From a virus, in IMG/VR virus record IMGVR_UViG_3300021376_000244, positions 1-30,094 of that record: DNA of 30,094 bases. The stretch is one strand, 5' to 3'. This document shows, piece after piece, positions 95-18,700 of the stretch (the first letter of the stretch is position 1; each line of letters starts with the position of its first letter). A model generated the notes under the pieces. It was not told the origin of the DNA. It ran no database searches and saw only the letters and a program-made list of their open reading frames with translations. The position numbers and the translations under genes are program-made.

Positions 95-820
95 TTATAG
101 TGCTAATTTTAAAGACACTACACATCTCTGAATATTTATAGAATATATGACTTCAAACTGCAAAATGTCTCCAGCATCGAGAGTTTTGTTCCAAGAAACG
201 ATTGTTGTATTCCGATTAATTCTTTGATTTGTTCCAGTATTAATATTTCCCAATTGAGGTTTTTCTGTGCCACAAATTGACGCAAAATTTGGAAAATTTA
301 TAAAGGAAGTTTTTTTGATATCAAATTGAATTTGACCATCTTGGTCTCCAATAATTGTCCATGATTGTATTTTTCCAGTTACATCTAATGTCATATCTCC
401 TTTAATTCCTGTTGCCATAGGAGATGATCCAGAATCAACAACAAAATTAATTGTTCTTGTGAGATCTGCTGTGGTTGAAAGAGCAACAACATAAACAATA
501 TTACTGGAAACTGGAGCAGAACTAAAAATTAAATTTGTTCCACTTACCGTGTAATCAATACCAGGAACTTGTACCAATCCATCAATAGCAACAATTAATT
601 GTTGATCATTAATCGGTGTATACGGATCACCTGCCTGGTCAATTAATGGATATGTAGTTGTTGTACCATCAAAAATCCAATTTGTTGTATTGAGAATTTC
701 GTTCCCATACTGCAAGTATTTACTAGGTATTTCATAATTAACACCAATGTTGTACTTCTGCTGTGGTTCAGATAGTACATTGTAATTTGATTTTTTTAGA
801 GAAATATTGTAATTTGCCAT
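95..820 (-). CDS. Virion structural protein with fibre-type C-terminal domain (241 aa)
   Basis: A likely tail-fibre or adhesin-associated virion protein. I chose the ATG at 818-820 (MANYNISLKK) rather than the TTG one codon earlier, because it overlaps the upstream gene's TGA as TGATG, a coupling signal. Residues about 75-105 carry the phage motif IDGLVQVPGIDYTVSG followed by IFSSAP, seen in many fibre proteins. The C-terminal half (about 130-241: NFVVDSGSS, TGIKGDM, SWTIIGDQDGQIQFDI, FPNF, EKPQL, LDAGDILQFEV, VSLKL) matches a beta-rich domain I know from many marine phage tail proteins. No signal peptide or membrane segment is seen. The exact virion position is unknown. Confidence 0.8.
   Translation of the reverse strand: MANYNISLKKSNYNVLSEPQQKYNIGVNYEIPSKYLQYGNEILNTTNWIFDGTTTTYPLIDQAGDPYTPINDQQLIVAIDGLVQVPGIDYTVSGTNLIFSSAPVSSNIVYVVALSTTADLTRTINFVVDSGSSPMATGIKGDMTLDVTGKIQSWTIIGDQDGQIQFDIKKTSFINFPNFASICGTEKPQLGNINTGTNQRINRNTTIVSWNKTLDAGDILQFEVIYSINIQRCVVSLKLAL
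133..141 (-). promoter_or_regulatory. Second late promoter motif (CTATAAATA), inside the upstream gene's 3' end
   Basis: CTATAAATA on the minus strand, overlapping the last codons of the gene ending at 95. It is a fuller match to the T4-like late consensus than the intergenic copy at 81-88 and points at the same downstream gene. In AT-rich coding sequence such motifs can arise by chance, so this copy is less certain. Confidence 0.4.
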
Positions 821-1155
821 CAAACAACTCCTGGCGTTACTTCAATTACTCCTTCAATAACTCTAGTTTTAATCCCCTGAGGAGATGTCAAAACAATATC
901 ATAAACATATCGTCGTGCCTCTATGCCTGCAGTAGTTGCATTAGGAAGAGAAATTTTTAAAATCCCATTATAACGATTCACAAAGGTTATAATAAAATCT
1001 GTAAAAGTAGTAGCATGATAACTACGACGCATTTTTGCTTGCGCTGTATACCCTGTTAAATTTAAAGGTGTTGTATTTTCTTCATTTGTAATGTTAAAAG
1101 TGGCATCAAAGTCCGTTCCTTTTTCCATTAGAAGATTTAAGGGAATTGCTGCCAT
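820..1155 (-). CDS. Small Ig-like / BppU-N-like virion protein (111 aa)
   Basis: Begins MAAIPLNLLMEKGTDF and shows the pattern of small beta-sandwich proteins common in cyanomyovirus structural clusters: an N-terminal 'EKGTDFDATFNI' strand, a 'LNLTGYTAQAKMR' segment resembling the baseplate-upper-protein (BppU) N-terminal fold, and 'RYVYDIVLTSPQG...RVIEGVIEVTPGV' at the end. It probably attaches or spaces a neighbouring fibre protein. It has its own late-promoter motif at 1174-1180 and an A-rich leader without a clear Shine-Dalgarno, and it is coupled to the next gene by a TGATG overlap. Family assignment is from pattern memory only. Confidence 0.75.
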   Translation of the reverse strand: MAAIPLNLLMEKGTDFDATFNITNEENTTPLNLTGYTAQAKMRRSYHATTFTDFIITFVNRYNGILKISLPNATTAGIEARRYVYDIVLTSPQGIKTRVIEGVIEVTPGVV

Positions 1156-1208: not shown

Positions 1209-3593
1209 TTATGGATTGTATGGATATGATTTTCCAGGACCCCATACTATATTAACGGCTGAAGGTCCAGGAGATCCACTATATGATCCGCTGAAATCAT
1301 TGGTTCCTCCACTACCTCCACCAAAACTTCCTCCAACACCTCCATCATGAGTACCAGATGGATTTCCATTACCGCCACCAGATCCACCATAACCACCGTC
1401 GCCACCAAAATATGTTGAAGGGGCTCCTGCACCACTGGTTCCTTGACCATAAATGTTCACGCCACCTCCGCCGCCACCTTTTCTTTTGGTGTCGTTACTA
1501 TCTTGATCAATGTGACCAGCACCACCGCCGCCACCACCACCGGATCCAGAATTACCATAAGCTACTGCGCCATCTCCACCATTTCCTGTGTATCCACCGG
1601 CACCACCGCCGCCGCCGCCCCACTGCGTTGCAACACTACCAGATCCACCATTTCCTCCACCATCTCCGGCGTAAGTTCCACCTGATCTATTTGATGTACC
1701 TAAAGAGGTGGTTGCAGAGCTGCCACCACCACCTCTTACATAAGAAGAATTTATAAAGTAAGAATCACCACCGTTGGTTGTGTTTGTTCCGGGAGCCCCA
1801 ACAACTACAAGATAACTTGCTCCAGGTGTTACTGGTATATTATTTTTCCAACCTAATCCAGCTCCTCCTCCACCGCCGCCGCCGCCCATGCCGCCACCAC
1901 CAATACAGAGAACACAAACTGAAGTGACTCCAGCAGGAGCTACCCAATTAAAAGGTCCGGCGCCGGTGGAGGCACTAGAATAAAACGCAGATCCAGACGG
2001 AGTTGTTGATGTATCACTAATAGTTACAGCAGAACTTGTAGCAACAATAGTTCCACTTGTACTCCCTGTTCTGATTTGTAATTGAAAACTTTCAGAACCT
2101 TCAACTGTTAAATCGTTCGATAAGGTTCTTGTAATTGTTCCAGAATTACTACTAATGGTAAATGATCCACTTGTGGCACTATCATTAAAGTCTGATGCAT
2201 TGACAGTTCCAGAGACCGTAGAAGTAGACCAATATAAAGTCGTACCATTAGAGACATTAGTTGTACTTACCGTGAAAGTGACAGAAGAACCTTCATTGAC
2301 TGATGATGTTGATGGTGATACTGAATATGTTGGAGGAAGAGATGTGTCATTAATTGTTACTCCAGAACTTGTGGCTACAATCGTTCCTGAAGTAGAACCC
2401 GTTCTAATATACAATCCAAAACTTTCAGAACCCTCTGTCGTTAAATCATTTGATAGGGTTCTTGTGATTGATCCAGAATTAGCAGAAATTGTAAATGAAC
2501 CACTAGTTACTCCATCATTAAAGTCTGAACCAGTAATCGATCCATAATTTGTGTAAGTAGACCAATATAATATGGTTCCATTAGAAACATTGGTGGCAGT
2601 TACATTAAATGTAACAGAAGAACCCTCAGTAACTGATAATGTATTGGGTGATACTGAGTAGGCTGGAGTTGAAATATCACTTATAGATCCTATAAATGTA
2701 CGAATGTCTTGCTGCAAAACGGTGTTAGTTACAAAAGCGTCGTGTCCTCCAGTTGCATAATAATTAAAAGTTGATGTTGAACAATTCGTACAAGCGTTCA
2801 GTCCAACTTGTACTGTATTCTGCATCAAGTTAACTTGATATGAATCATCATCAAGTGCTTGAGTAAACAGTGTTGGAGATAAAGTTCCTGATAGATAACT
2901 CTTAAGCGACCTCGTATTATATGCGCTTGGATTTTCCGTTGTCGTACCAAAACCAAATCTGATTTTATTACACGTAAAGTTGTCAGTATTGTGTATTCCA
3001 GAACATCTATCTAACAAGTCAATAGGACCTGGAGCATTTGCTATAACACCATTAACAGGGTGCATCGTGTTCAATCGATGTACTAAGTAAGCACCTTGAG
3101 AATGACCAAAAGTAAATACTCTATTAACTGTTTTAGATATACCGTTACTTGACATGTAAGAATTCAAATTATTCTTAACCCACAGGAGTGCTGCTTCTGC
3201 ATATACAATGTTATCTCCAAAATATAATGTAGGATAATTTAATCCAGGAAATTGTGCTGCTGGTAATGATGCATCTAATTGCCAAGCAGGAATCATATCT
3301 TGTGGATATGCTACGGAAAAAATAAGTTTATCTCTAATGTTTATTTGATCTCTCACTATAGTCATAAACGTTGATGCAGCACCAGATGGGGACACTCCAG
3401 GTGCTCCAATTGTTCCGTGATATAGCACCACTACATCTACAGACGATCCTACATTTGATGATGTTGGGTAATACAAGAATCCTCTAACAGGATACCCATT
3501 GTATGTTGTTAGGATAAGAGAAGTGGTAACTCCTGTATATGCATCACTTGTTGGTATACCACCAATCTTACCAATTGTTTGTAAAAATGGCAT
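1209..3593 (-). CDS. Virion-associated alpha/beta-hydrolase fused to Calx-beta repeats and poly-glycine adhesin tail (794 aa)
   Basis: Three parts can be seen. Residues 1 to about 302 look like a complete alpha/beta-hydrolase of the esterase or PHB-depolymerase kind: VVVLYHGTIG for the oxyanion-hole strand, nucleophile elbow FGHSQG with Ser165, acidic cluster LDDDSYQ (Asp248-250), and GGHDAF with His284, in the right order and spacing for a catalytic triad. Residues 311-421 and 422-532 are two Calx-beta-like domains (YSVSP, EGSSVTF, SDFND, TRTLSNDL, EGSESF) in tandem. Residues about 540-794 are very glycine-rich, starting with FNWVAPAGVTSVCVLCIGG, as in phage glycine-rich receptor-binding tips. 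The ATG at 3591-3593 is preceded by GGAA; no own promoter is evident, so it is probably read from 3873-3879. No signal peptide is apparent, as expected for a virion part. Inferred role: fibre or adhesin with enzymatic deacylation or ester hydrolysis of host surface material; the substrate is unknown. Confidence 0.85.
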   Translation of the reverse strand: MPFLQTIGKIGGIPTSDAYTGVTTSLILTTYNGYPVRGFLYYPTSSNVGSSVDVVVLYHGTIGAPGVSPSGAASTFMTIVRDQINIRDKLIFSVAYPQDMIPAWQLDASLPAAQFPGLNYPTLYFGDNIVYAEAALLWVKNNLNSYMSSNGISKTVNRVFTFGHSQGAYLVHRLNTMHPVNGVIANAPGPIDLLDRCSGIHNTDNFTCNKIRFGFGTTTENPSAYNTRSLKSYLSGTLSPTLFTQALDDDSYQVNLMQNTVQVGLNACTNCSTSTFNYYATGGHDAFVTNTVLQQDIRTFIGSISDISTPAYSVSPNTLSVTEGSSVTFNVTATNVSNGTILYWSTYTNYGSITGSDFNDGVTSGSFTISANSGSITRTLSNDLTTEGSESFGLYIRTGSTSGTIVATSSGVTINDTSLPPTYSVSPSTSSVNEGSSVTFTVSTTNVSNGTTLYWSTSTVSGTVNASDFNDSATSGSFTISSNSGTITRTLSNDLTVEGSESFQLQIRTGSTSGTIVATSSAVTISDTSTTPSGSAFYSSASTGAGPFNWVAPAGVTSVCVLCIGGGGMGGGGGGGGAGLGWKNNIPVTPGASYLVVVGAPGTNTTNGGDSYFINSSYVRGGGGSSATTSLGTSNRSGGTYAGDGGGNGGSGSVATQWGGGGGGAGGYTGNGGDGAVAYGNSGSGGGGGGGAGHIDQDSNDTKRKGGGGGGVNIYGQGTSGAGAPSTYFGGDGGYGGSGGGNGNPSGTHDGGVGGSFGGGSGGTNDFSGSYSGSPGPSAVNIVWGPGKSYPYNP
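1998..2663 (-). repeat. Tandem Calx-beta duplication, 333-bp period, two copies
   Basis: Copies at 2331-2663 and 1998-2330 encode two adjacent 111-residue units that align without gaps. Shared blocks include YSVSP, EGSSVTF, TNVSNGT, LYWST, TSGSFTIS, TRTLSNDLT, EGSESF and IRTGSTSGTIVATSS. The in-frame 333-base period and high likeness show a tandem domain duplication inside the hydrolase-adhesin gene. Confidence 0.85.
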
Positions 3594-3899: not shown

Positions 3900-5504
3900 T
3901 TATGCAAATTTATTCCGTGAAGCTAAAACTGTCCATTGTATTGTTGCATTATCGCCCGTTCTGATAATTGTATAAGTATAAACATCAATTGAGTTTGCAT
4001 TTCCTCCAGGAAATGCAGTTCCACCAGACCATTTTGGTACTACCACACTATTATCAATTTTGAAAGTAGTATTACGATACGCAGTTGATCCTTGAGTCGC
4101 CAAAATTACAAAGGTGAGGGAATCACCAACTCCTATCAACTGATGCAGAGTAGAAATTGAAGGTGAGTTTCTTACATCAACAGTCCAGTCTCCACTAGCA
4201 TTAGTTGTATAATAATATACTGCATTATTTTGCAAGTAAACCGTAGCACCGTTTGAACCACTCAAAGAATCCGATTTAAGCAATGCGCTTTCAATGACTC
4301 GGTTTGTATTAATGCTTGACTGAATAATTGAGACATCTAAAACTTTAGTAGATTTACTATAAGTAAATCCACTATCACCACTAAGTACGCCATTATCATT
4401 AAATTGAACTTGAGTATTTAAACCACCAGGAGTTCCGCTACCACCACCTGCTCCAGTTGGAGCAGAATTTTCCCACAAACCAGTTGAACTATTGTATGAA
4501 AGTACTTGTCCACTTGCAGGAGAAGTAATTGCTACATCATTTAGTGCATCAATAGAAAGGTTACTAATGCCAGTAATATAACCAGCAGTAGCATGGTTGC
4601 CCCAACTATATGCAGTATCCCAATTTGTTTTGTTTGTATTTGTAATTGTTGCCGCAGGCGATGCAGCAAATATTGGGTCAATTTCTGTATATGAAGTTAA
4701 ATATCCAACAGTACTATGATTCCCCCAACTATATGCAGTGTTCCAATTACTAATTTCGGTGTTTGTAATATTTTTTGAGGGAGAAGCATTGAATATAGGA
4801 TCAGTTTCTGTATAAGATGTTAAATATCCAGCATTAGCATGGTCGCCCCAACTATATGCAGTGTCCCAATTAGAAATCTTAGCTACATCTTTAACCCAAT
4901 AACCAGCAGTAGCATGGTTGCTCCAACTATATGCAGTATCCCAATTTGTTATATCTGTGATGGTGATACTACCAGCAGGTGATGCAACAAATATTGGGTC
5001 AGTTTCTGTTATATTTACATTAGACCATTGTATTCCACCATTACCATCTGCTGTAATAACTTGTCCTGCATTACCAGTAGGATTGGTGCCATAACCTATT
5101 GATATACCAGCTCCACCCACAAATGATATTAGTCCGTTTAGATAAGGTCCTCCAACAATTTTTTCAATTTCAATACCGCCGAGGGCCACGATTGGGTCAC
5201 CCGTTGTAATACCTTGTACATTTCTCCACTTGCCATTAGTATATGTTAGAAAGTGACCCTCATCTAAAGGCAGAAATCCAGGACCGCCTGGTGGAGTGAT
5301 TTCAACATCAGTTAAACCAAGAAGAGAAACAGAAGTTAAATATCCAGCACTAGCATGGTTGCCCCAGCTATATGCAGCATCCCAATTAGAAACATTAACA
5401 GAAGACAAAATGAAATTGATTGCATCTAGATCAACTGCAATTTCGTTGATTTCTTGCCTTTGTTCTTCAAATGTAAATTGTTTATTAACGTTCCTAAGTA
5501 CCAT
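3900..5504 (-). CDS. Repeat-containing virion/tail-fibre-like protein (534 aa)
   Basis: The N-terminus (MVLRNVNKQFTFEEQRQEIN) is a short charged segment of the kind that starts many cyanophage structural proteins. Five copies of a repeat with core NWDTAYSWGNHATAGYL occur at about residues 38-55, 183-200, 210-227, 251-268 and 292-309, several followed by TSYTETDPIF and ASPA. Middle segments such as DALNDVAITSPASGQVLSYN and GLNTQVQFNDNGVLSGDSGF are fibre-shaft motifs shared with many phage and marine metagenomic tail proteins. The C-terminus (about 390-534) is a beta-rich domain. The ATG at 5504 overlaps the upstream gene by 11 bases, so translation is probably coupled. Likely a fibre or whisker; attachment site unknown. 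Confidence 0.8.
   Translation of the reverse strand: MVLRNVNKQFTFEEQRQEINEIAVDLDAINFILSSVNVSNWDAAYSWGNHASAGYLTSVSLLGLTDVEITPPGGPGFLPLDEGHFLTYTNGKWRNVQGITTGDPIVALGGIEIEKIVGGPYLNGLISFVGGAGISIGYGTNPTGNAGQVITADGNGGIQWSNVNITETDPIFVASPAGSITITDITNWDTAYSWSNHATAGYWVKDVAKISNWDTAYSWGDHANAGYLTSYTETDPIFNASPSKNITNTEISNWNTAYSWGNHSTVGYLTSYTEIDPIFAASPAATITNTNKTNWDTAYSWGNHATAGYITGISNLSIDALNDVAITSPASGQVLSYNSSTGLWENSAPTGAGGGSGTPGGLNTQVQFNDNGVLSGDSGFTYSKSTKVLDVSIIQSSINTNRVIESALLKSDSLSGSNGATVYLQNNAVYYYTTNASGDWTVDVRNSPSISTLHQLIGVGDSLTFVILATQGSTAYRNTTFKIDNSVVVPKWSGGTAFPGGNANSIDVYTYTIIRTGDNATIQWTVLASRNKFA
4574..5391 (-). repeat. Five in-frame copies of a W-x-TAYSWGxHAxAGYL repeat
   Basis: Copies lie near 5338-5391, 4903-4957, 4821-4875, 4697-4752 and 4574-4629. 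At DNA level the core complement of 'ccccaactatatgcagt' (plus strand) recurs almost unchanged, so the copies are recent or kept alike by recombination. Copies 3 and 4 are joined by TETDPIF-type linkers, with a third such linker also before copy 2. Confidence 0.85.
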
Positions 5505-5704: not shown

Positions 5705-8700
5705 TCAATATGATGCTACTGCTCGTAGATCTTGTACTTTAGGAACAAATGCAGGATTACTTGACTTCATAATAATTTTAATTGCAAACGATGAGAATTC
5801 TGGAAGATTATCAACACTGTATGACAATTCTTGGTATGAAGATTGTTTCTCTGTAATTGCACTAATAGAATTTTCTGGAGAAGCAAGTATAACATTATCG
5901 GGAGCTCCATTAGTATTAAAATATTCCCATTCGATATCATCAAAATTTTCTTGTGATGAAGATTTCTTGATTCTGTAAAGAATACGAATATTTTCAATAT
6001 CAGTAGTATTTACAGTTGTTCTTACATCAATACCCGTTGCTGGATTTTCAATAGAAATTTCTTTAGTAACATATTTTGCAATGCTTGAACTATTTTTTGA
6101 TTGAACGTCACTTGTAAAATCTACACCATCAGAATATGTAATTTTTGATACTTCAATAAATTGATTTTGATTTTCGTTTTGACCCGGATATGAAATAAGA
6201 TCTCCAACTCTAAAGATATCACTGGTCTGACTATCTACACTAGAATTTCTATTAAATACCGATCCAGAACCTGTAGTTGGAATAGGTGAGTCATAGTCAT
6301 TATTGATAGGAAGTTTGTCATTAACAACCGTTAGTTCGCCAGTCTTCTCATTCCAAGAAATAATTTTTCCAGAAATCTTATTTGAATATAATTGAGCTGG
6401 GACTGATGGATTTCTTGCTGTTACATAAGTTGGAGGAACCAATGTATTGGGGATTTGGAAAATTTGTTTTGATGCCCCAGCAGAAGATACTTTGATAGGA
6501 TTTGCAAAAGTGCTGGTTTCAAAAGTTAATGTTTCCCCAGCAGTAAACGCATTTGTTGTTTTAATCTTAACGTAAATTACATTTTGTTCAACACGAACAA
6601 TTTTGCCAGATGCATTTGTTGTACTTCCCGTTACAATTTGATTTAGTGCAATTGTTTCCGATTGTTGTACACCAGTAATAAGCATTGAATATACTGGATA
6701 AAATTCTAAGATTTGATTTCTTCTTCCAAAACGAGGCTCTTTTCCTTTAGCATTTTCAATCTTATTTGTAATAGTCTTAATAGATGCTCGGGACAAATCA
6801 ACTAATGGTGATAGTGTTGATGTTTTACTTGAAAGTTCAATTTTATATGTCAAAGATCTATCAATGTCATTGATTGTTTCGTTGATTCTGGAAGTAATAA
6901 TTTTTTGATTGATAAAGAATGCCTCTTCATTCAAAAAAGTTTTTTCATAGTCTGTTTGTGAATAAGACGCAAAAGTTTTAACATTATCATCAACAGGAGA
7001 AATATTTGTCGTCTTAATAAAACTATCAATTTTTGTACTACTAAAAGATAGTACAGGAATTGACGCAAAGATTTTTTCATACTTTCTATTATATGAAGAT
7101 AAGATACTCGATCCTCCACCAAATGCATTTGCAGATGCTCTATTAATAGAAATTAGTGAATAATAATCAACTCCAGGATTATATACTTTAAATAATTGAC
7201 TATTTAATTGAGAGGACGATAAACCACCAACATCTTGGGCACCTCGGAAAAATACATACGAGTTTTCGTCAGAATCAAATCCATGATCTGGATGATACAC
7301 TTTAAATATAAAATTATTATTTTTAAATAAATCTGAGGTTGCAGTTGTATTTGATTCTGCATTCGTTTCAATAGAATTGGGATCTAACTTTTCATATCCA
7401 AGATTTTCATTTGTTAAAAGTAGTGTTGCTGTTCTTGAAATATCAAAGTCTGCACGATACATTTTAAACTTAATATCTTCAAATAAATCTTCCGTCCAGT
7501 CATTTGTATTTTGAGATTTAAATAATGAACCCAATGCCGGTTGAGTAGTAACGATGGTACTAGTAGCAATTTCAATTTCTCCCAGTTTAGATGCCCAAAT
7601 TTCATAATCAATAGAATCTGTTTCAATTGATAACGCATATTCTGTATCATTTTGTAAATAAACTGGATAATCAAATCTAAATTTTGTTGGCGTAATTGAC
7701 CTTGTTGTTCCAACGTCATCGGTTGCAATACCCATGCGAACTGCTGGAGTGTCGATTGTAATAAAAGCTTCGATTTCAGCACCAGCAGATCCAGTTCCAG
7801 TCCCATTAATTACAATTGCTGGTGGCTCTGTATATTCAGAACCAGATAATACTAATTCTGTATCATAAATCTTACCACCTGATACTCTAACGGTAGCGGT
7901 TGCATTTCCACCACCAGGAAGTTGTGGACTCTCAATAGTTAGGAAAGCAGATTCATAACTAGATCCGGTGTTTTTCACACGCAAATCTGTAACTCTGCCA
8001 GAATCTTTTACAATTTTTAAAGTTTTAGTAGTGTTATTTAAATTATTATTGGTTATAATTGATGGAACAGATAGATTTTCATCTGCTTTAAATGATATAC
8101 CGTTGTGGTTACTAGTAACTAATGTATAGATTTGATCGTTTGTTAATGTAAACACTCCAGATGAAGATACTGCTAATTCAATGTTATTTTTATCAAAAAT
8201 TCTTGAAATCGGACCAGATGCGTTAGAAGAAGAACCAGTTACCTTTTCTCCTTTTACAATTGTTAAAGTGTCGCTCGCAATAACTCTCAAATATGTTCCT
8301 GGTAATAACATTTGTTGAGATCCTGGAATAATATTCTTTCCTGGTTTTCCGTTTTCGATATCAGTCAAATAAACTCGTAATGGAATTGTTGAACTTTTCT
8401 TGGAGAAAAATAGATCTACAGCTGTTACAAATACACCACCTTCAAACTTTTCAATTTTAAAAGTTTGTGTCATTGGATTTGGTTTGACTGGATTATCAGT
8501 GTTGCTACCAGTTACTTGAGTACCTTCATTGGATTTAAAGTATGCAGGCGATGTTGAAACAATAGAAGATTTATTTTCTGGTAATAATCCAGTAGCATAG
8601 AACTTAATTTCTGCATAAGTATCAATAGTTTCTTTTGATGCATCGGTAGAACTAGAAGTAAATCGGATTGTTTTTGCTCCAGTAGTAAATCTAATTTCTT

Positions 8701-11700
8701 CAGCATCATCATCATAAACAACGGTATCTACATTTCCAGACCAAATAGCATTTTCTTTTGGCGGGTTTCCAGCTGGAACTAAAATAATTCCACTAGCATT
8801 ACCATTTTCGTCTGTAGTAATTCTACCATTAAATGCAGTTAAGGAGTTTCCAGCAATTCCTGTATAACGTGCATCTGGATTAACCCACCTTGCAATATTT
8901 CTGCCCTCCATAAAAACAAAAATATTTGTATTGGGTTTTAACCGATTAATAGTATATTTGATTGGAATACTTCTAGCAAAAAATGATAGAGATGTTGCAA
9001 CTACATTAGATCCAATTCCTTTTGTACTGATACCTTTACCAATTTCATTATTTTCAGGACTAATATTGGAAGAACTTGATATTGAAGCTGTAGCAACGCT
9101 AGAATCTGAGAGATTTGTATTTACTTCAGCAAACGATCCAATATTGAAAAACGACCTGTTTGCACCCAACCAATTAATTTTATATGAATTAAATAAACTA
9201 GAAAATGCATCTTTTAGTTTATTTTTTGCTAAAAAGATAGAATATAAATTTGTATTATTATCATTAACTAAAGGAGCAACGCTAGTATCATACCAAGAAT
9301 CGACATTTGGAGCAATATTTGCATCTCCTGCATATTGAAGAACAACAAATGGATTTGGATTTACGGTCTTTGTTGCAAATGAATTCCCCAGCAATTCTAT
9401 TTCTGATTTGATTGGAAGAGTAATACGATCTCCCATTCTTTTATATCCAGATACAGATCTTTGATCTTCTCTAGTATTAACTTCGACTAATGAAAAAGAA
9501 TCTTCTTTTGATTGTGGTCTCAAAACTGCCTGCTGGGTATCAATAGCACACTTGTAGTCTAATGATTGCAATGAACCAATTTTATGAGTTTCAAAATTGT
9601 CAACAATAAATCCACTCTTGTAACGATTTGTTCCTGTAGAATCAACGATTTGCATATTTAATGCTTGCTGCTCAAGAACACTGAGAAGAGTATAGTATTC
9701 AAGACGCTCTATTCTTTTTTCTAGTTTACCAATATCACGCATTGTATAACGCTTATTATCAACTGAAGTAATTCTTACATCTTTGCTGCTTTGAGTAAAA
9801 GCAGGAACATACAAGTAATATAATGGGATGGCGTCATTAATTAAATCTGGTCTAGTTGGATTTAAAGATGAATTGCCTTCTTTTAAAATAAATTCTCCTT
9901 TTTTATTTAAGAATACTCCGTCAATACGATCTAAATATTGTTTTTGCGTAAACGAAAAAGTAAATTCAATATTAGAATCTGGAGCTGGGGTGCTTGCAAC
10001 TATACCACCAGTTCCAGTAAACGCCCTGGTAATTGAAGATGAAAGTAAAGAAGTATTTTGGAATCCAGAAATAATTGAATTGTTGTCTATTTTTGGTCTA
10101 AAATCTAAAACATCTTTTAAAGAAACTTTTCCTAAAGATGGAGAATTATATGATGGAATTTGATCTGACGTTACTCCTGCTTCATGTAAATATGAATCAA
10201 CAGTACAAAAGTCTCCCTGAGTATGCTCAAAATAATCAAATGCAACAACTAATTGCCCAACAGTTGGTTGAGATCCTGGCTTTAAAATAATTCTAGAGAC
10301 ATCATAAATTGTATCTCTCTGACCATCATCAAAAGTAAATCTACTAGTAACATCAACACCGCTTACTAGCTTACCATTTCTATCTACAATAGGTGCTTCT
10401 GATGCAGATCCTTCATACACATATCTCAATTTAAACACATCTGCGTAACTAGCTACATCTAAACTACCAGTATCGTAGTCCTTTCCTCTCAAAGGAATGA
10501 TTCTATCTCTGGAAGAATCAATAATAATTCTTTTGTTAATAACAGCAGTCTTTAGTCTTGGTTTTGCTTTTGATACTTCTAACGTTGCTGTTAGTTTTAA
10601 CGTCGGATATTTGCCGTTCGTTGGAACAGTGCCAAAATAATTTAATGGAAATTTGAGTTCGACACTTCCAGAAGTTAAACCACTTGTTGCATCGGTAGAC
10701 GCTTTAATACTTATTTGTTCAGAAGTAACATATACAATATCACCAGTTTTAATATTAGGAGCATCTCCGGGGTTAAGAATAGTAACCAAGAAGTTACTTT
10801 CACTAAAAGAAACAAACCGCTGAGTTCCAAATGGAAGTTGTGCTGCAAATGTCAGTCCCTGCTGTGTACCATTTCCGGTACTTACAAAATCTCTTCTTAG
10901 ATAATAAGTAATTTTTGAATCTTCACTATTTGCAACAATTGAACTCAATTGACTTGTTCCAGTTTTGTAAATTAAAGTCCCCATGTTGAAATTATCTATT
11001 GCTGGACGAACTCGTACAACACTAGTATTGTCAACATCATTTGGCAGAGAACGATCAAAATAAATTCTTGATTTTAAAATGCCTTCTGGTTTTGTTGCTT
11101 GTTGTACAATACAACGTACTACTGTTCCCGAAGTATCTGTAATTTGAATTAAGTCATTTTGTTGTAAAAATTTTGTTGCGTCTCCACCAAATCCGTTACA
11201 CTCAATATATTTTCTTCCCTGCTCGCCACTAAATGTAAAATCTGTAATTCCAATAGTTTCTGTATATTTTTGTTTGCCAAGTTCAACATCTGAAGTAAAT
11301 ATGTTTGTATTTCCAGAACCAAATTCAGCAAAAAATGATTTGACATTTTGTGGTGTATATGTAGTGACTGCGTTTCTAACTAAAACAGGAGTTACAACAG
11401 CTGCTGTTGTAATACCACCACCGCCTGTTGCTTGTATTATATTGATAATTGGTGGTTTGGAATACTCTTGGTTGAAAACTTCTCTATTTACGATATCTGC
11501 GGAAACCAACGCCCCAGAATTATTGAGTCTTAAATTTACTTTTGTATTATCATAATCAATACCATCAACTCTAATTTTTGTTCCTGGAGCGTAATTTAAT
11601 CCTCTTTTATTAACAATAAAATGGGAAATTGTATTATCTTTGGCAATTCTCAGTGAATTATTACTTTCATCAAAAATAGTTTCTCCAGATTTAAAAGTTC

Positions 11701-13852
11701 CAAATAAAGTTTTTACCATCAAAGTTTTTCCAGATGTATAGAAACCAATATCTGAATTGCTCGCAGGACCGCCTTCTACGACCCCGTAAGCGCCGCTTTC
11801 AGCACCGTAGATATATTTACCTGGCGTGAAGCTATCGGCGACTGTAATCGCTTCATCGAGGGTAATTTTGGTAAAGAATTGAGGATCAAAGTATGAAAAT
11901 CCAAAAATAGTATTATAAACAGCACTGCCATCTTCTTTTCTGCCTTTAGAGACAATAATGTCAGTATCTGGATTGAATCCAGTTCCTCTTTCAATAAGAG
12001 TAAAGTTACTTGGTTTTATAGTTCCAATAACAGGGGTGATTGTTTCATTATAATCAACAATGTTTCCAAATGGTGTTGCTCCACTAATTGCATCATTTTG
12101 AGTTAAGTAAATTTCTCTAAAATTTGATCCAGAACCAAGATCATATTCTTTTAGATAATTATCTAGATAATCTTTTCTGCCAGAAACTGTTAATTCTAAA
12201 AAGGTCACCGATCCAGTAGGATCTACTTCTACTCTTTTCACTTTTGAGAATGCTATTGATTTTACCGATGCAGCTACAGATGGTTGTCCTTGATCTGTTC
12301 TTGTTTGTACAAACCAAATAGTTCCAATAGTTGATACAAAATTAGAACCACTTAAAGTAGAATAAGTATTTGCATATTGGGAATTGACAGCAATGTAAAT
12401 GGTTTTGATACCAGTTTGGATATCAAAAAAACTTCCTCTCAAGTTTAACGTTTGTTTAGGATCATTTATACCTTCTGTATTATTTAATCCAATAGATCCA
12501 TCATTGAAAACACAGGATAAAAATACATTTGGATATGCAGTTAACTGTGGTGCCTCGGCGTTTAGTGGGACACTACCGTAAGTGTTAGTAATTTTATATG
12601 TTGGAAGACCTTTTGTTTTAATTCTAATATCTTCTCGATCTAATGTTTCTCTAGCTTTATTTACAGTGATATATTTTGTTTCTTTATTTACAATTTCAAA
12701 CCCTTTGATGTATGCTTTTCCTGGTCCAACACTTGCTAATAATTTTTCCCTAGCTTTTTCTACCGAGTCACCATTTACCAAATTGAATTCGTCTTTTGAA
12801 TACACACCCAGATTTCCATTTTCCTGATAATACTCTCTAATATCAAGAGAAAAATCATCAACAACATAATCACCAGATTCATCATAAGTTCTTCTGGCAA
12901 GAGTTTGTTCTAAAAGATTATAATCAGTTTGAGTTACCTGAGACTGTATAGAACCTAAACGAACGGAAAGAAGTTGAATAAAATTTTTATCAGTAATTTG
13001 ATTTAATGAATACTTTATTAAGTCTAAAGAAATTTTTAATCTGTGCGCCCCAGGAGAAGTATAATTACTAGATCCAATAGCGTTATCATACAGAGAATTA
13101 TCTTCTTCAGCAGTTACAATACTTTCAGAAATTTTAAATCCAATTTTTGCAGATGGTTTATCGTAGTAATTATCAATTACTAATAACTGCGGGTTATTTT
13201 TTACAAAATAACCATTAACAAAATAAATTCCTTCTTCTACTTGTACAGCAGAAGCATATCCCATTGCTGGACTTTCAAGAGAAGATTTTACTCCAGTATC
13301 AGGATTAGTAACTTCAATACTTGTTGGTAAAACACTGCCGTCTGTTCCCACAACCAGTAGAGGAGTATTTATACCATCAACAACTTCTAGTGTTTCACCT
13401 TGACGGAATGTTTCTTCGTTCCCATCATTACCACTATTTGTATAATTTACAAAGATAACATCTGATGTGCTGTCGGTAGCTGTAATTGCATCAATTACAG
13501 TTGCTGTTACTCCAGAAGTAATACCTTTTAATTTTTCTAATTTTAATTGAGAGATATCATATTTTTTATATACAATCTGCCCATCTTGATTAATTGGAAT
13601 TTCAGATACCGAAGACAGTTTTACAAAATTTAATTTTGTATTTAATCCAACTTCTCCTGGAATTACAAGTTCTCCTTGCTTGAAGGAATACTTACCAAAT
13701 TGCTCAATTTGATTTTGTAAAATAGATTGTAGCTGCGTTAATTCTCTTGCCTGAATAGAATACCCAGGACGGAATAAAACTTTATAAAAATTCTTATCCT
13801 GGTCAAAGTCATTGTAGAACGGAGCTACATTCAGGTTTGTCTTTTGGGGCAT
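5705..13852 (-). CDS. Giant DUF4815-like virion structural protein (2715 aa)
   Basis: The N-terminus (NLNVAPFYNDFDQDKNFYKV, then LFRPGYSIQARELTQLQSIL, QNQIEQFGKYSFKQGELVIPG) is the hallmark of DUF4815-type phage structural proteins. Around residues 1365-1400 is the conserved YTMRDIGKLEKRIERLEYY segment with KCAIDTQQAVLRPQ after it. Around 1600-1690 comes IPIKYTINRLKPNTNIFVF, a segment typical of these proteins. Beta modules of the form GxxYxxPxxxI-GxGxGAxAxAxI and GExVxGxxSxAxGxI recur at several places. It is far longer than the DUF4815 domain itself. It starts 29 bases after gp8 and lies where T4 has gp9-gp12 genes, so a baseplate-rim or tail-pin role is likely, but homology to gp10 cannot be claimed from reading alone. 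It is probably co-transcribed with gp8. Confidence 0.85.
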   Translation of the reverse strand: MPQKTNLNVAPFYNDFDQDKNFYKVLFRPGYSIQARELTQLQSILQNQIEQFGKYSFKQGELVIPGEVGLNTKLNFVKLSSVSEIPINQDGQIVYKKYDISQLKLEKLKGITSGVTATVIDAITATDSTSDVIFVNYTNSGNDGNEETFRQGETLEVVDGINTPLLVVGTDGSVLPTSIEVTNPDTGVKSSLESPAMGYASAVQVEEGIYFVNGYFVKNNPQLLVIDNYYDKPSAKIGFKISESIVTAEEDNSLYDNAIGSSNYTSPGAHRLKISLDLIKYSLNQITDKNFIQLLSVRLGSIQSQVTQTDYNLLEQTLARRTYDESGDYVVDDFSLDIREYYQENGNLGVYSKDEFNLVNGDSVEKAREKLLASVGPGKAYIKGFEIVNKETKYITVNKARETLDREDIRIKTKGLPTYKITNTYGSVPLNAEAPQLTAYPNVFLSCVFNDGSIGLNNTEGINDPKQTLNLRGSFFDIQTGIKTIYIAVNSQYANTYSTLSGSNFVSTIGTIWFVQTRTDQGQPSVAASVKSIAFSKVKRVEVDPTGSVTFLELTVSGRKDYLDNYLKEYDLGSGSNFREIYLTQNDAISGATPFGNIVDYNETITPVIGTIKPSNFTLIERGTGFNPDTDIIVSKGRKEDGSAVYNTIFGFSYFDPQFFTKITLDEAITVADSFTPGKYIYGAESGAYGVVEGGPASNSDIGFYTSGKTLMVKTLFGTFKSGETIFDESNNSLRIAKDNTISHFIVNKRGLNYAPGTKIRVDGIDYDNTKVNLRLNNSGALVSADIVNREVFNQEYSKPPIINIIQATGGGGITTAAVVTPVLVRNAVTTYTPQNVKSFFAEFGSGNTNIFTSDVELGKQKYTETIGITDFTFSGEQGRKYIECNGFGGDATKFLQQNDLIQITDTSGTVVRCIVQQATKPEGILKSRIYFDRSLPNDVDNTSVVRVRPAIDNFNMGTLIYKTGTSQLSSIVANSEDSKITYYLRRDFVSTGNGTQQGLTFAAQLPFGTQRFVSFSESNFLVTILNPGDAPNIKTGDIVYVTSEQISIKASTDATSGLTSGSVELKFPLNYFGTVPTNGKYPTLKLTATLEVSKAKPRLKTAVINKRIIIDSSRDRIIPLRGKDYDTGSLDVASYADVFKLRYVYEGSASEAPIVDRNGKLVSGVDVTSRFTFDDGQRDTIYDVSRIILKPGSQPTVGQLVVAFDYFEHTQGDFCTVDSYLHEAGVTSDQIPSYNSPSLGKVSLKDVLDFRPKIDNNSIISGFQNTSLLSSSITRAFTGTGGIVASTPAPDSNIEFTFSFTQKQYLDRIDGVFLNKKGEFILKEGNSSLNPTRPDLINDAIPLYYLYVPAFTQSSKDVRITSVDNKRYTMRDIGKLEKRIERLEYYTLLSVLEQQALNMQIVDSTGTNRYKSGFIVDNFETHKIGSLQSLDYKCAIDTQQAVLRPQSKEDSFSLVEVNTREDQRSVSGYKRMGDRITLPIKSEIELLGNSFATKTVNPNPFVVLQYAGDANIAPNVDSWYDTSVAPLVNDNNTNLYSIFLAKNKLKDAFSSLFNSYKINWLGANRSFFNIGSFAEVNTNLSDSSVATASISSSSNISPENNEIGKGISTKGIGSNVVATSLSFFARSIPIKYTINRLKPNTNIFVFMEGRNIARWVNPDARYTGIAGNSLTAFNGRITTDENGNASGIILVPAGNPPKENAIWSGNVDTVVYDDDAEEIRFTTGAKTIRFTSSSTDASKETIDTYAEIKFYATGLLPENKSSIVSTSPAYFKSNEGTQVTGSNTDNPVKPNPMTQTFKIEKFEGGVFVTAVDLFFSKKSSTIPLRVYLTDIENGKPGKNIIPGSQQMLLPGTYLRVIASDTLTIVKGEKVTGSSSNASGPISRIFDKNNIELAVSSSGVFTLTNDQIYTLVTSNHNGISFKADENLSVPSIITNNNLNNTTKTLKIVKDSGRVTDLRVKNTGSSYESAFLTIESPQLPGGGNATATVRVSGGKIYDTELVLSGSEYTEPPAIVINGTGTGSAGAEIEAFITIDTPAVRMGIATDDVGTTRSITPTKFRFDYPVYLQNDTEYALSIETDSIDYEIWASKLGEIEIATSTIVTTQPALGSLFKSQNTNDWTEDLFEDIKFKMYRADFDISRTATLLLTNENLGYEKLDPNSIETNAESNTTATSDLFKNNNFIFKVYHPDHGFDSDENSYVFFRGAQDVGGLSSSQLNSQLFKVYNPGVDYYSLISINRASANAFGGGSSILSSYNRKYEKIFASIPVLSFSSTKIDSFIKTTNISPVDDNVKTFASYSQTDYEKTFLNEEAFFINQKIITSRINETINDIDRSLTYKIELSSKTSTLSPLVDLSRASIKTITNKIENAKGKEPRFGRRNQILEFYPVYSMLITGVQQSETIALNQIVTGSTTNASGKIVRVEQNVIYVKIKTTNAFTAGETLTFETSTFANPIKVSSAGASKQIFQIPNTLVPPTYVTARNPSVPAQLYSNKISGKIISWNEKTGELTVVNDKLPINNDYDSPIPTTGSGSVFNRNSSVDSQTSDIFRVGDLISYPGQNENQNQFIEVSKITYSDGVDFTSDVQSKNSSSIAKYVTKEISIENPATGIDVRTTVNTTDIENIRILYRIKKSSSQENFDDIEWEYFNTNGAPDNVILASPENSISAITEKQSSYQELSYSVDNLPEFSSFAIKIIMKSSNPAFVPKVQDLRAVASY

Positions 13853-13881: not shown

Positions 13882-15660
13882 TTAGAATTCAATTACTAGT
13901 TTAATGTCCTCAATTTGATCAGGAGCTCTAGTAATTTGTCTTCTGTTTTCTATGTATATGATTTCCCCAGAGTTTGGTTCAATTTCTGGAACTGATAAAC
14001 CGCCAACAAAACTAATATCTGCAAGAATTGCATTTTGAGTAGTATCAATATTTCCTGATGCAGTTGATGACTGACCAACAATAGCGTTTGCTGCATTTGA
14101 TTCAAATAAATAAACTTTTCCATTATGTGTATGTAAATCTGGAGATTGGAAATATTTAAGAATTCCGTTTGTGGAATCCCAAGAAACTACCGTTCCTTTT
14201 GCTATCCCACCAGCAACTGTTTGCTTAATTACTTCGTCTGGCATATAATCTGCCGTTGCTCCATTTACTTTAGCAACTCGTGTTCCACGAAGAGTACTAC
14301 TAGAAGCAAAAGTTGTTGATCCATATTCATAGGGATCTTTAATAATTCCAATGCTACGGAAATCATTATCAACGGGGAAGTCTCCTTGACCTTCATCGTA
14401 TGTCAAACGAATGTTTGTCATAATTCTTTTTGCAAATAATTCCTCCTCTGCATTTGATCCATGACCACCAATTGGAGACATAACAACCTCAATCGCTGCA
14501 GTTCCAGTAAATGGAGATACATTTGATGTTAAGGTTGCATTTGTATATACGTTTGCAGTTTTTAGAATTACATTGCCATATGTATATTTCGTACCTTTTT
14601 TATGCATTTTGCATGAAATAATAGATCCAGATCCATTAGTTTCAAACTTAACAATTGCTCCGGTGTTAGTTCCAGATCCAACTCCATCACCAAATACAGG
14701 AGTATAAAGAGTTTCAGATGCAGGAAGACCAGATCCAGCATTTTTGATTACAGCAACATCAATAGACCCACTGACCGCATTTGCTTCAACAGCAACTCTA
14801 GAAGCTTCTCCAACTTCAGCAATTGGCATAAAGTCTGAAGATAAAAATGCCAATACATCACTTGTGGTTAGCGTATACATATGTTTCCAAATGTATCCTG
14901 CAGTTCCTGTTGGCTCTGTGTAAATTCCGTTAGCAAACGTACCTTGACCAGCAGTTGGTTGTAAAGATGGTTCATAAGTTACATTTTGACCAGTTGGATT
15001 TGTTGCTGACTGACCATTGTACAGGCACTTAAATACTTCATATCTAGAGTTCATCACATAGAACTTTGAAGTGGATAATGAAGTTGAACCCAGTGCTGTT
15101 TGAATACCAATTGCTCCACCGCCCCCTGGGGTAGCAGAGTAATTTGGACGATACATATCAAACTTTTGATTCAGTGTCGTGTTCCAATTGTAACGAGGAA
15201 CAACAAGACGAGCAAAAGGAGATGTAATTCTTTTGGCAGCAATCATCTCTTCATAAGTTTTTCTCTTTTCAATTTGATTATCAAGTGGCGCCGGAGGAGA
15301 ATTTTCAGTTCCATATCTATAAACACCGGACTTAGCAGTTGCAGTTGAAGTTCCACCAGTGATAGTAGTTCCAAATGCTGGAGTTGTAGTTGGTGTTGGC
15401 AGAATACCTGTTAAGAGAAGACTGTTTGGGTATACAGCAGAAACAGATCCACTCCATCCCCCACCGCTAACAGTTTCACCAACTTGGAATGTTCCAGTTA
15501 CATTGAAGATTTCGAGATAACTATCCCAACTGGAAGATCTACCAATAAAAAAGTACATTCTTGTACGATTTGCATCAGCGTCATTAGAACCTTCGCTTAG
15601 GGATTCTAGAAACTGTTTCGCATTAAAAATTCTAAAATTTTCTGAAATTATAGCTGCCAT
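13882..15660 (-). CDS. 8: Baseplate wedge subunit gp8 (592 aa)
   Basis: A structural protein of the T4-type baseplate wedge. The N-terminus (MAAIISENFRIFNAKQFLES, then ADANRTRMYFFIGRSSSWDS) is the cyanophage gp8 signature: a FNAKQFLESLSE helix followed by YFFIGR and a tryptophan, matching T4 gp8's TYITFGRSEPW region. Further support is the central SFARLVVPRYNW, WKHMYTLTTSDVL and FLSSDFMPI stretch. At 592 residues it is much longer than T4 gp8 (334), the extra length being inserted modules such as FQVGETVSGGGWSG near residue 55 and GSGxxASE/GTGAIV-type stretches near 300-360. It starts at the ATG 15658-15660 behind a triple late-promoter motif and is followed after 29 bases by the 2715-residue gene. 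Confidence 0.88.
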   Translation of the reverse strand: MAAIISENFRIFNAKQFLESLSEGSNDADANRTRMYFFIGRSSSWDSYLEIFNVTGTFQVGETVSGGGWSGSVSAVYPNSLLLTGILPTPTTTPAFGTTITGGTSTATAKSGVYRYGTENSPPAPLDNQIEKRKTYEEMIAAKRITSPFARLVVPRYNWNTTLNQKFDMYRPNYSATPGGGGAIGIQTALGSTSLSTSKFYVMNSRYEVFKCLYNGQSATNPTGQNVTYEPSLQPTAGQGTFANGIYTEPTGTAGYIWKHMYTLTTSDVLAFLSSDFMPIAEVGEASRVAVEANAVSGSIDVAVIKNAGSGLPASETLYTPVFGDGVGSGTNTGAIVKFETNGSGSIISCKMHKKGTKYTYGNVILKTANVYTNATLTSNVSPFTGTAAIEVVMSPIGGHGSNAEEELFAKRIMTNIRLTYDEGQGDFPVDNDFRSIGIIKDPYEYGSTTFASSSTLRGTRVAKVNGATADYMPDEVIKQTVAGGIAKGTVVSWDSTNGILKYFQSPDLHTHNGKVYLFESNAANAIVGQSSTASGNIDTTQNAILADISFVGGLSVPEIEPNSGEIIYIENRRQITRAPDQIEDIKLVIEF

Positions 15661-15696: not shown

Positions 15697-15715
15697 TATT
15701 TATATTTATTTATAG
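15697..15715 (-). promoter_or_regulatory. Three overlapping late promoter motifs before gp8
   Basis: Minus-strand elements CTATAAATA (15707-15715), ATAAATA (15703-15709) and TATAAATA (15697-15703) overlap one another in a 19-base run, the first straddling the stop codon of the giant gene. They lie 37-55 bases before the gp8 ATG. Tandem late elements of this kind suggest a strong or multi-start late promoter for gp8 and the 2715-residue gene. Confidence 0.75.
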
Positions 15716-18700
15716 GGCGTTTCTAATATAGGAACCAATTGTGTGTTCCTGGATAAGAGAGTTGTTAACAGCTCTAGTACAGTTTAAAAAACGATCCGTA
15801 AGTTTGTTAGTATAAGATATTTGTTCTTTTCCAATTAATATAGTTCCAGATGATGCAAAGTTGGTAGTGTTTGCATATACAACAACACCAGTTGATAGAT
15901 ATCCAGCATCACCAAAGTTTGGAAGATCTGAAGTATTTAATTGAGTTAAGTAATTATTAATAGATGGATATCCAAGATTAATTGTGTATCCAGGACTTAG
16001 TATATTAGAATTTTTTAAAGTTTCAAAATCATCAATTACAAACCCGTACATATTAAATTCTTCAATGGTCACAGCAGAAACAGAAATACCAGTAGAAGTT
16101 AGAATATCTCCAGTATTCATAAACTTTGCTCCTTCCCATTGACCAAATGTTGGACCAAGTGTATTATTTTCAAGTATTGAACCAAATGTTGCAAATCCCA
16201 ATTCATGATAGAAAGTCCATGCAGTTGTTGTTGTTAGCAATGATTGAGATTCAAAAGTTCTATCAATAACACTAGTTGTAATAATATGTGCAGAATTTTG
16301 AATAAGTGGATTTTGAATTCCGGCAATCGAGGTTGGGTTATAAATGACATACTCTTTTTTGAAATTGAGTAACGGAGCAGTATTTAATTTTCTATTAATA
16401 ATAAGAGTTATATCATATCCAGACGGAACGAATACTGATGCATCAATAGTAGCAAAATTTTCAATTCCTTTAACTCTACTAAGACTGTAATTTACTGCTA
16501 CTGGTGATTGTTTAATAATTTGAGTTCCGATGATTAAACTGTGAGAAGTATCAATTTTTCTACCATTTTTCTTAACAATATCATATTGTCTTGCAGTAAC
16601 TACTTTTGGTGCGGTTGTATATCCACTACCACTATTTGTTAAGACAATATCAATAATTTGACCACGAGATACAATAACTTCTGCTTTTGCGCCACCACCA
16701 TTTTGATCTACAGGAATAAAATGCAATACTGGTGGAGTTTCATATCCATATGCTGTTGTTGGTTGAATAATTCCTTTATTATACAACAATTGTAAATCTT
16801 TTTTATTCCACTCTAAAGAAGAAACTTTGCCATTTTTGATTTTACAGGTTACACTTAGACCAACGCCCAATGTTGATCCATTATAGTTTGTTGTTATGAC
16901 TGATCCAAAGAAATCGTTAGAAACATCAACACCAGGATTATAATTTTTTGGATTAACATATCTTGGGAGCTCATTAATTGTTCTATATTCTTTTTCTCCA
17001 TCAATTTTAACTATATCGCCAACGTTCAAATTAGCAAGCAATCTTCTTTTTTTATAGAATGTCTCATCTGCAGATTTTGTTCCATATAACCATTTTGCAG
17101 AATTTCTTTGCATCCTATAATTATTATCAAAATCTCTAGTAATTTCAAGTGTATTTGTTGTACCAGTCAGTTCGTATTCATCTGAAAAATCAGACTTACT
17201 AGAGAAGAAAATAGATGAATTGTTTAAATCTGGATTATTACCAGCAAGGACAATAATTAATGATTGATTTGTACTTGTAAAGGACTTAATGTTACCTATG
17301 AATTTCTTAATACCACCAACTTTTTGGTATGCAACTTGAAAATTTTCATACGAAGTGTTGTACCAAGTTTTCCAATCAGTGAAATCGTTGTTTGTTGTTG
17401 ATGTGCAAGTAATTTTTATATTATTATAATAAGTATTTTTTTCAAAATCATACAGAGTGACGGTCTGCTTTGTGTCTCTTCCATATAGAAGGATAATCTC
17501 AACACTATTATCAGTGTAAATTGGTTTATCAAATCTGATTGCTGGTCCATTAATTGAATATGATTCTCCATCTACCTGGAGAACTCCATCAAGAAATACA
17601 TACGCAAATCTTGAATCGTCAATATTCTGAACTTCCTTATTCTCTGAATTTAAAATAATAAATGGTCCAGCAGATCCGTCAAGAATACCAGATTTGTCAA
17701 TTTCGCAGCGATAATAATTACCTACACTGTGAGCAAAGAATTTTTCAACTGCTAATGGTTCTTGTACAGTTTTTGTATTTTCTTCTTGCCCCCAAATTGG
17801 TGGTGAAGAAAAGACAACTTTATTTGGAACAGATGATCTATCAATAAAATACGAAGAATCATGTTGTAGAACTCCACTCAACGCGATGAAAAGATTTTCA
17901 TTCTCTTGTGTATTTACAGGAGATCCATCAGTATAGTAGAGATCAAAAATTGTATTTTCACCATTAAAGTAGTCTGGTTTAGATATATCAGCAGTTCCAG
18001 GACCAGTTGTAAGTGTTTCTCTTATATTTTCATATAAAGAATCTAATGAAGATGCAACATCTTCACATTCTGTAAATGTATTATATTTTAATCCGGGATC
18101 AGCAATCAAATTATAATTAGAATATGATCGTAAATTTGTCCAATACCCAGTTGAATTTGGATTTTGAGGAATAGTATCAATCCTACCAGGACCACCTTCT
18201 AATATATCTTCAACTATTTGTGCGTAAGTTAAAATAGCACTTTTAACTTCCTGACAGTATGGATTTACAGTATCAATACGAACATTAGAATCAATTATAG
18301 GAGCAATTATTGTTGTGCCAGAAATTTGATTTAACATCGCATCAATCATAAGAATTGCTGCTTGATTATAAGCATAAATTGATTCTATTAATTCCTTGGC
18401 AATATGAACTCGTTTATTGTTGACAAAATAAGAATTTCCAAAAGCAATTACCTTTTCATTACCACCGTATCTCAAGGAATGTGCCACTGCATCGACAAAA
18501 ATACCAATATCTCTGAAACACAAATCTTCTGTTTTTACCCAAGATGATATTCCAGTATTTTTTGTTACTGTTGGTTTTTGACCATTTGTAATCGCTGTTG
18601 TTAAAATAGAAAATAGGGACGAAATTGCAGAGTTTACATTAGCACACTCAGGTACTTTTGTAATATTTGGATCTGTCACAGCACCTTGATTCGCAACCGC

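Follow-up and report, generated by a model that had tools for sequence, protein, structure and literature searches.

Results

The stretch of DNA that we analysed (the window; 30,094 bases) is the complete IMG/VR record IMGVR_UViG_3300021376_000244, which is classed as linear. Genes for a T4 gp8-like baseplate wedge subunit (13882–15660, minus strand) and a T4 gp6-like baseplate wedge subunit (25804–27612, minus strand), together with tail fibre genes and nucleotide similarity to Synechococcus phages, make the window a fragment of a T4-like cyanophage. The gene of interest is read on the minus strand from an ATG at 3593 down to 1209 and encodes a protein of 794 amino acids; the open reading frame is real, and its setting in a cyanophage tail/baseplate gene cluster fits the preliminary description of the product as tail-adhesin-like. 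On one side it adjoins a gene for a tail fibre protein (phrog_9729; 3900–5504, minus strand), and on the other lies a gene whose product is similar to L-shaped tail fibre assembly proteins (phrog_3304) or a BppU N-terminal domain (820–1155, minus strand). (Note that the baseplate region also encodes two very large proteins, of 2715 and 3362 amino acids, at 5705–13852 and 15710–25798, respectively; some relatives of the latter carry the hydrolase insert described below.)

The N-terminal part of the protein had been read as an alpha/beta-hydrolase on the strength of three motifs, and all three lie where they had been placed: GHSQG, the nucleophile elbow, at residues 163–167 (3093–3107, minus strand, with Ser165 at 3099–3101), DDD at residues 248–250, and GGHDAF at residues 282–287. 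An AlphaFold (AF2) model of the domain (residues 21–303; 2685–3533, minus strand), for which the alignment consisted of 16 linear relatives, has a pLDDT of 89.9 and a pTM of 0.89 and contains an alternating beta/alpha core with strands and helices in the canonical order. In this model Ser165 follows strand beta5 (residues 155–164), Asp249 (2847–2849, minus strand) follows beta7 (241–246), and His284 (2742–2744, minus strand) follows beta8 (274–279), which is the canonical order of the triad; a helical cap spans residues 193–233. Comparison of the model with the PDB by Foldseek gave 1175 hits with E ≤ 0.001, down to about 1e-11, among them lipases, acylaminoacyl peptidases/S9 peptidases, and the feruloyl and acetyl esterases with which a comparison had been proposed. 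The alpha/beta-hydrolase fold is confirmed at the level of the predicted structure, and the result that would have spoken against the preliminary description, a model lacking such a core, did not arise. Moreover, the arrangement of the motifs is far above chance, because the domain has homologues at 76%, 68%, and 39.5% identity in addition to the modelled fold and the low Foldseek E-value. (An SGNH/GDSL deacetylase of the kind found in phages was considered as an identity for the domain and rejected, since the fold and the elbow are those of an alpha/beta-hydrolase.)

When the window domain was searched alone, nothing exceeded the cut-offs of Pfam, NCBIfam, or PHROGs, a sequence search of the PDB gave no significant match, and the curated profiles for PHB depolymerase, feruloyl esterase, and tannase gave no match; the best hit of a profile search of the PDB was LpqC (3d0k; E = 0.014). 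The tannase profile was matched by two relatives of the domain (best E = 3e-4). Since the window domain reaches no curated family cut-off, the labels "PHB depolymerase" and "feruloyl esterase" are not established. We considered whether the module might instead be a peptidase, an amidase, or some other non-esterase that opens, for example, outer-membrane protein or S-layer-like material. Two bacterial relatives (see below) do pass the gathering cut-off for Peptidase_S9 (PF00326; 24.8 and 25.2 vs 22.6 bits), the best fold matches include acylaminoacyl peptidases, and at two loci (L001 and L018) the module precedes a subtilase-like protease part. However, the window domain itself falls below that cut-off (12.8 vs 22.6 bits; E = 0.08), PF00326 catches esterases too, and the fold matches range over lipases as well as feruloyl and acetyl esterases. 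We regard a non-esterase activity as rather unlikely, if still a realistic contender, and favour an esterase.

The rest of the protein had been described as two Calx-beta domains and a poly-glycine end. The glycine-rich end is present (residues about 543–790; 1224–1967, minus strand). Of the two Calx-beta-like repeats (residues about 310–420 and 421–533; 1995–2666, minus strand), Pfam PF03160 sees the second alone, and that just short of its cut-off (E = 6.3e-6; 26.6 vs 27 bits), but in alignments the first repeat (310–419; 68%) and the second (77%) fall on a single Calx-beta domain of L132, a relative. A match to phrog_4474 spans residues 421–793 of the protein (E = 3.9e-53). Calx-beta repeats followed by a glycine-rich end, as at 1224–2666 of the window, are common among IMG/VR contigs and there follow many different leaders. 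Neither the hydrolase nor the leader of the window protein was present in any of the 79 Calx-beta/Gly-rich loci that we kept from IMG/VR (each with one or both modules), and no empty-site relative of the window protein itself was found among them. The Calx-beta and glycine-rich parts would present the hydrolase and bind surfaces.

Among 50,697 phage records, the sole match to the hydrolase domain was Synechococcus phage S-SCSM1 (two copies of one genome), whose protein QFG06499.1 has 39.5% identity over the shared core and a conserved triad. IMG/VR yielded two close relatives (L001 and L002), and many further ones were obtained with S-SCSM1 and profile queries. A narrower first scan of bacterial and archaeal genome contigs found no relative; with a broader profile, a scan of 84,980 bacterial and archaeal species genomes found two, both in MAGs (the scan was pattern-based, and more distant cellular relatives may exist). 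Both bacterial relatives are stand-alone proteins of about 300 amino acids with an N-terminal hydrophobic, export-like segment. With 42 distinct viral copies these two make up a set of 44 representative domains.

For comparisons of strand order the domain was split into three profiles, namely the core (beta1 to beta6, with the Ser), B (the acid strand), and C (the His strand). Each of the 44 domains contains one copy each of core, B, and C within a single open reading frame, and these copies occur in three circular orders. The linear order, core-B-C, is that of 19 viral domains and of both bacterial ones; 19 copies have the acid and His strands first (B-C-core), and four, including that of the isolate S-SCSM1, have the His strand first (C-core-B). 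In S-SCSM1 the His segment GTSHAAFTSNATLQAAIRNFIGS lies upstream of the nucleophile elbow. The breakpoints are constant. As judged from a junction table and alignments, the B-C-core domains are opened in the cap region, between residues 216 and 225 of the window protein, so that the loop at residues 217–224 (2922–2945, minus strand) corresponds to the termini of all 19; the C-core-B domains open between helix alphaE and strand beta8, and the loop at about residues 267–273 (2775–2795, minus strand) corresponds to the termini of the four. The C-core-B form retains two linkers, GASTGDGSEPY in the cap, shared with nearby linear forms, and TNPGGPIANAQF joining the C to the N terminus, shared with B-C-core forms, which is what would be expected from a tandem intermediate. 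Segment by segment, the S-SCSM1, linear, and B-C-core forms are clearly homologous in sequence. An AF2 model of one B-C-core domain was of moderate quality (pLDDT 79, pTM 0.83), and sequential Foldseek aligned mainly its unbroken core (E = 3e-4). Because this is how a permuted chain would be expected to align, the model supports, and does not prove, that permuted chains keep the alpha/beta-hydrolase fold.

The copies come mostly from metagenomic contigs, and we asked whether the permuted orders could be artefacts of assembly or annotation. That explanation is barely credible and we rejected it: the isolate S-SCSM1 has the third order within one open reading frame, the same insert was recovered at the same place from several metagenomes (L010–L012; L013/L024; L018/L020; L019/L021–L023), and the breakpoints are constant and the linkers conserved.

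The re-ordered segments were placed in a maximum-likelihood tree with the two bacterial domains as the outgroup. It contains two linear-only clades, one of which holds the window and L001; a third clade (support 100/99) comprises 27 domains. Within this third clade, one B-C-core domain (L036) and four linear ones (L015, L055, L009, and L025) split off before 18 B-C-core domains, and the four C-core-B domains are nested within these 18. The order labels require four changes overall, one of which is bacterial versus viral, and three changes are forced for the linear label by well-supported branches. On this tree, the linear order is ancestral and the order has switched at least three times.

Asp249 is present in all 44 domains, and Ser165 and His284 are each present in 43. 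(Note that the preliminary description had named the cluster Asp248–250; Asp249 is its invariant member, whereas Asp248 and Asp250 vary.) Cys197 and Cys208 are also invariant in this comparison. The one domain without the Ser and the His is that of L054 (8031–8933 of that contig), in a baseplate-type protein, which has GHTQG in place of GHSQG and GGQNAY in place of GGHxAF and is apparently dead; its sister L056 keeps the triad. Since in L054 the Ser is replaced by Thr and the His by Gln, activity is evidently not indispensable everywhere, and one might suppose that the domain is in general a catalytically idle element for binding or spacing. Phages re-use folds as decorations, and shuffling of domains among their tail proteins is documented (PMC10684548). 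Nevertheless, the triad is kept at the above frequencies across three permutations, and both losses fall in one member, as would be expected if activity had been lost once and the constraint had then gone. We consider a pseudoenzyme quite unlikely. Because the triad is conserved through permutation, the hydrolase is probably catalytic.

The hydrolase is carried by proteins of the virion tail and baseplate, and these belong to ten families or more. They include tail fibres (phrog_529 and phrog_9729), a short tail fibre (phrog_4924), a baseplate wedge protein (phrog_2885/4406), a tail protein (phrog_457), protease-bearing proteins (phrog_15006 and phrog_9158/3677), a virion protein (phrog_30655), phrog_6942/677, phrog_24848, and phrog_4474 (the window); several others have no family. 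The cleanest junctions can be read in L014, where the hydrolase amounts to exactly 300 extra residues in a T7-like (podoviral) tail tubular protein B (phrog_457), flanked by MPHEL(V/A)xT and GATTFTF; the insert is absent from seven relatives at 75–78% identity and from S-RIP1. (GenBank gives no annotation for the gene that encodes tail tubular protein B in Synechococcus phage S-RIP1, L192, at about 2715–3560 of HQ317388.1, although its reading frame is intact.) One loop of a tail fibre holds both linear domains (L009, L015, and L025) and a B-C-core domain (L047), and the P-SSM2 counterpart is empty. In relatives (L016, L104/L107) of the phrog_9729 tail fibre protein that adjoins the window gene, the permuted hydrolase is likewise an insert. 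Among the sequences fetched, an empty-site relative was available for 20 of the 42 viral copies, some of the alignments being at 26–37% identity; for the S-SCSM1 host protein none was found.

Two further arrangements were observed. In L001 (7671–10793; linear) and L018 (7611–10403; permuted), the hydrolase, one in each, sits between a short protease-propeptide-like N-terminal part and a subtilase-like protease, which places two hydrolases within one virion-type protein. Separately, domains of different clades, permuted in L013/L024 and linear in L028, occupy loops roughly 30 residues apart in the same baseplate wedge family, suggesting that this region may be hot for inserts.

The presence of one module in many unrelated genes, together with clean empty sites, is also what might be expected of a selfish insert that spreads by itself, in the manner of an intein or otherwise, and brings the phage no benefit. 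Yet each of the ten records that we examined (up to 250 kb) has a single copy, wherever the host family can be named the inserts are confined to proteins of tail or baseplate type, and the triad of an enzyme is conserved. An intein was rejected, the edges having no conserved Cys/Ser/Thr on the N-terminal side and no His-Asn on the C-terminal side. A selfish insert is in our view very improbable.

Turning to the virion, GenBank tags S-SCSM1_235 (QFG06499.1) as "(virion protein)", a tag shared by 48 proteins of that phage, and mass spectrometry of S-SCSM1 virions identified 45 proteins (PMC9602691); the tag is thus near to the experimental list and not identical with it (48 tags vs 45 proteins). 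From the host families and this tag we infer that the window protein is displayed on the virion.

Discussion

The window protein shows one layout of many: its hydrolase is a module that recurs in virion proteins of ten or more kinds, with its segments in three circular orders. We think it fairly probable that this module is a mobile, permutation-tolerant, esterase-like hydrolase that is displayed on phage tails and modifies the host surface, its activity and its substrate being predicted. The window protein would then be a virion protein of the tail/baseplate region that displays an active serine hydrolase, most likely an esterase, which would attack ester groups, acyl groups among them, in the host's envelope or slime. 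The module is apparently of bacterial origin and would derive from an exported, linear, stand-alone enzyme; by in-frame insertion, marine phages would have placed it in the surface loops of numerous different tail and baseplate proteins. Permutants would probably arise when the module is duplicated in tandem within its host gene and the ends are then trimmed away. On balance we also lean towards regarding this recurrently permuting mobile module, with its at least ten structural contexts and three connectivities, as a natural, permutation-tolerant display of an enzyme whose activity is predicted.

Natural circular permutation is usually one old event per family. In the present case, close relatives with a very common enzyme fold differ in the connectivity of their catalytic core, which has switched at least three times. 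With linear ancestors, permutants, and empty sites all at hand, it can be tested directly whether the switches came about by duplication and trimming or by some other recombination. If our reading is true, the catalytic core of the alpha/beta-hydrolase fold is recurrently permuted in nature, and marine phages carry one hydrolase, predicted to act on surfaces, in many positions along the tail, some of them in proteins not considered receptor-binding. Loops that take a 300-residue enzyme would mark cargo-bearing places in tail proteins, and the isolate S-SCSM1 opens the way to laboratory testing.

Compared with the alpha/beta-hydrolase superfamily at large, the window domain shares the fold, the linear strand order, and the positions of the Ser, Asp, and His, but no specific family fits it, and the permutants described here put the His, or the Asp and the His, before the nucleophile. 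A 2024 survey of the superfamily records permutation of the edge strands beta1/beta2 only (PMC11878206). In the open-access literature we came across no permutants in which the catalytic acid and His precede the nucleophile, nor any account of the present module or of alpha/beta-hydrolases permuted in phages. Esterases on phage tails and the shuffling of domains are both known already. The closest permuted serine hydrolases are the SGNH hydrolases AlgX/AlgJ and PatB1, in which the His likewise precedes the Ser through natural permutation (PMC9487903). These nevertheless have another fold, act in acyl transfer during polysaccharide synthesis, show one fixed permutation, and are not phage tail proteins.

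By analogy, a precedent exists in another fold for tail esterases acting on surface polysaccharide (PMC8471582). Aristophanes gp41 removes O-acetyl groups and is needed for infection (PMC8471582), and structural (tailspike/tail fibre) polysaccharide deacetylases are also reported for Possum and PP99 (PMC9569702, PMC6989608). Gp41 resembles the role proposed for the window protein in being a hydrolase on the adsorption apparatus; it is, however, an SGNH/GDSL hydrolase that forms the C-terminal part of one tailspike, whereas the window module is an alpha/beta-hydrolase nested in many proteins. Re-use across receptor-binding and baseplate proteins is a feature that the module shares with the domain shuffling in phage tails described by Smug et al. 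in 2023 (PMC10684548). That text mentions neither permutation nor esterases, and in our case the insertion is nested and the module itself permuted. The homologue from an isolate, the "tail fiber protein" QFG06499.1 of S-SCSM1, which was deposited without recognition of the hydrolase, differs from the window protein in having the His strand first and in being a stand-alone protein of 368 amino acids.
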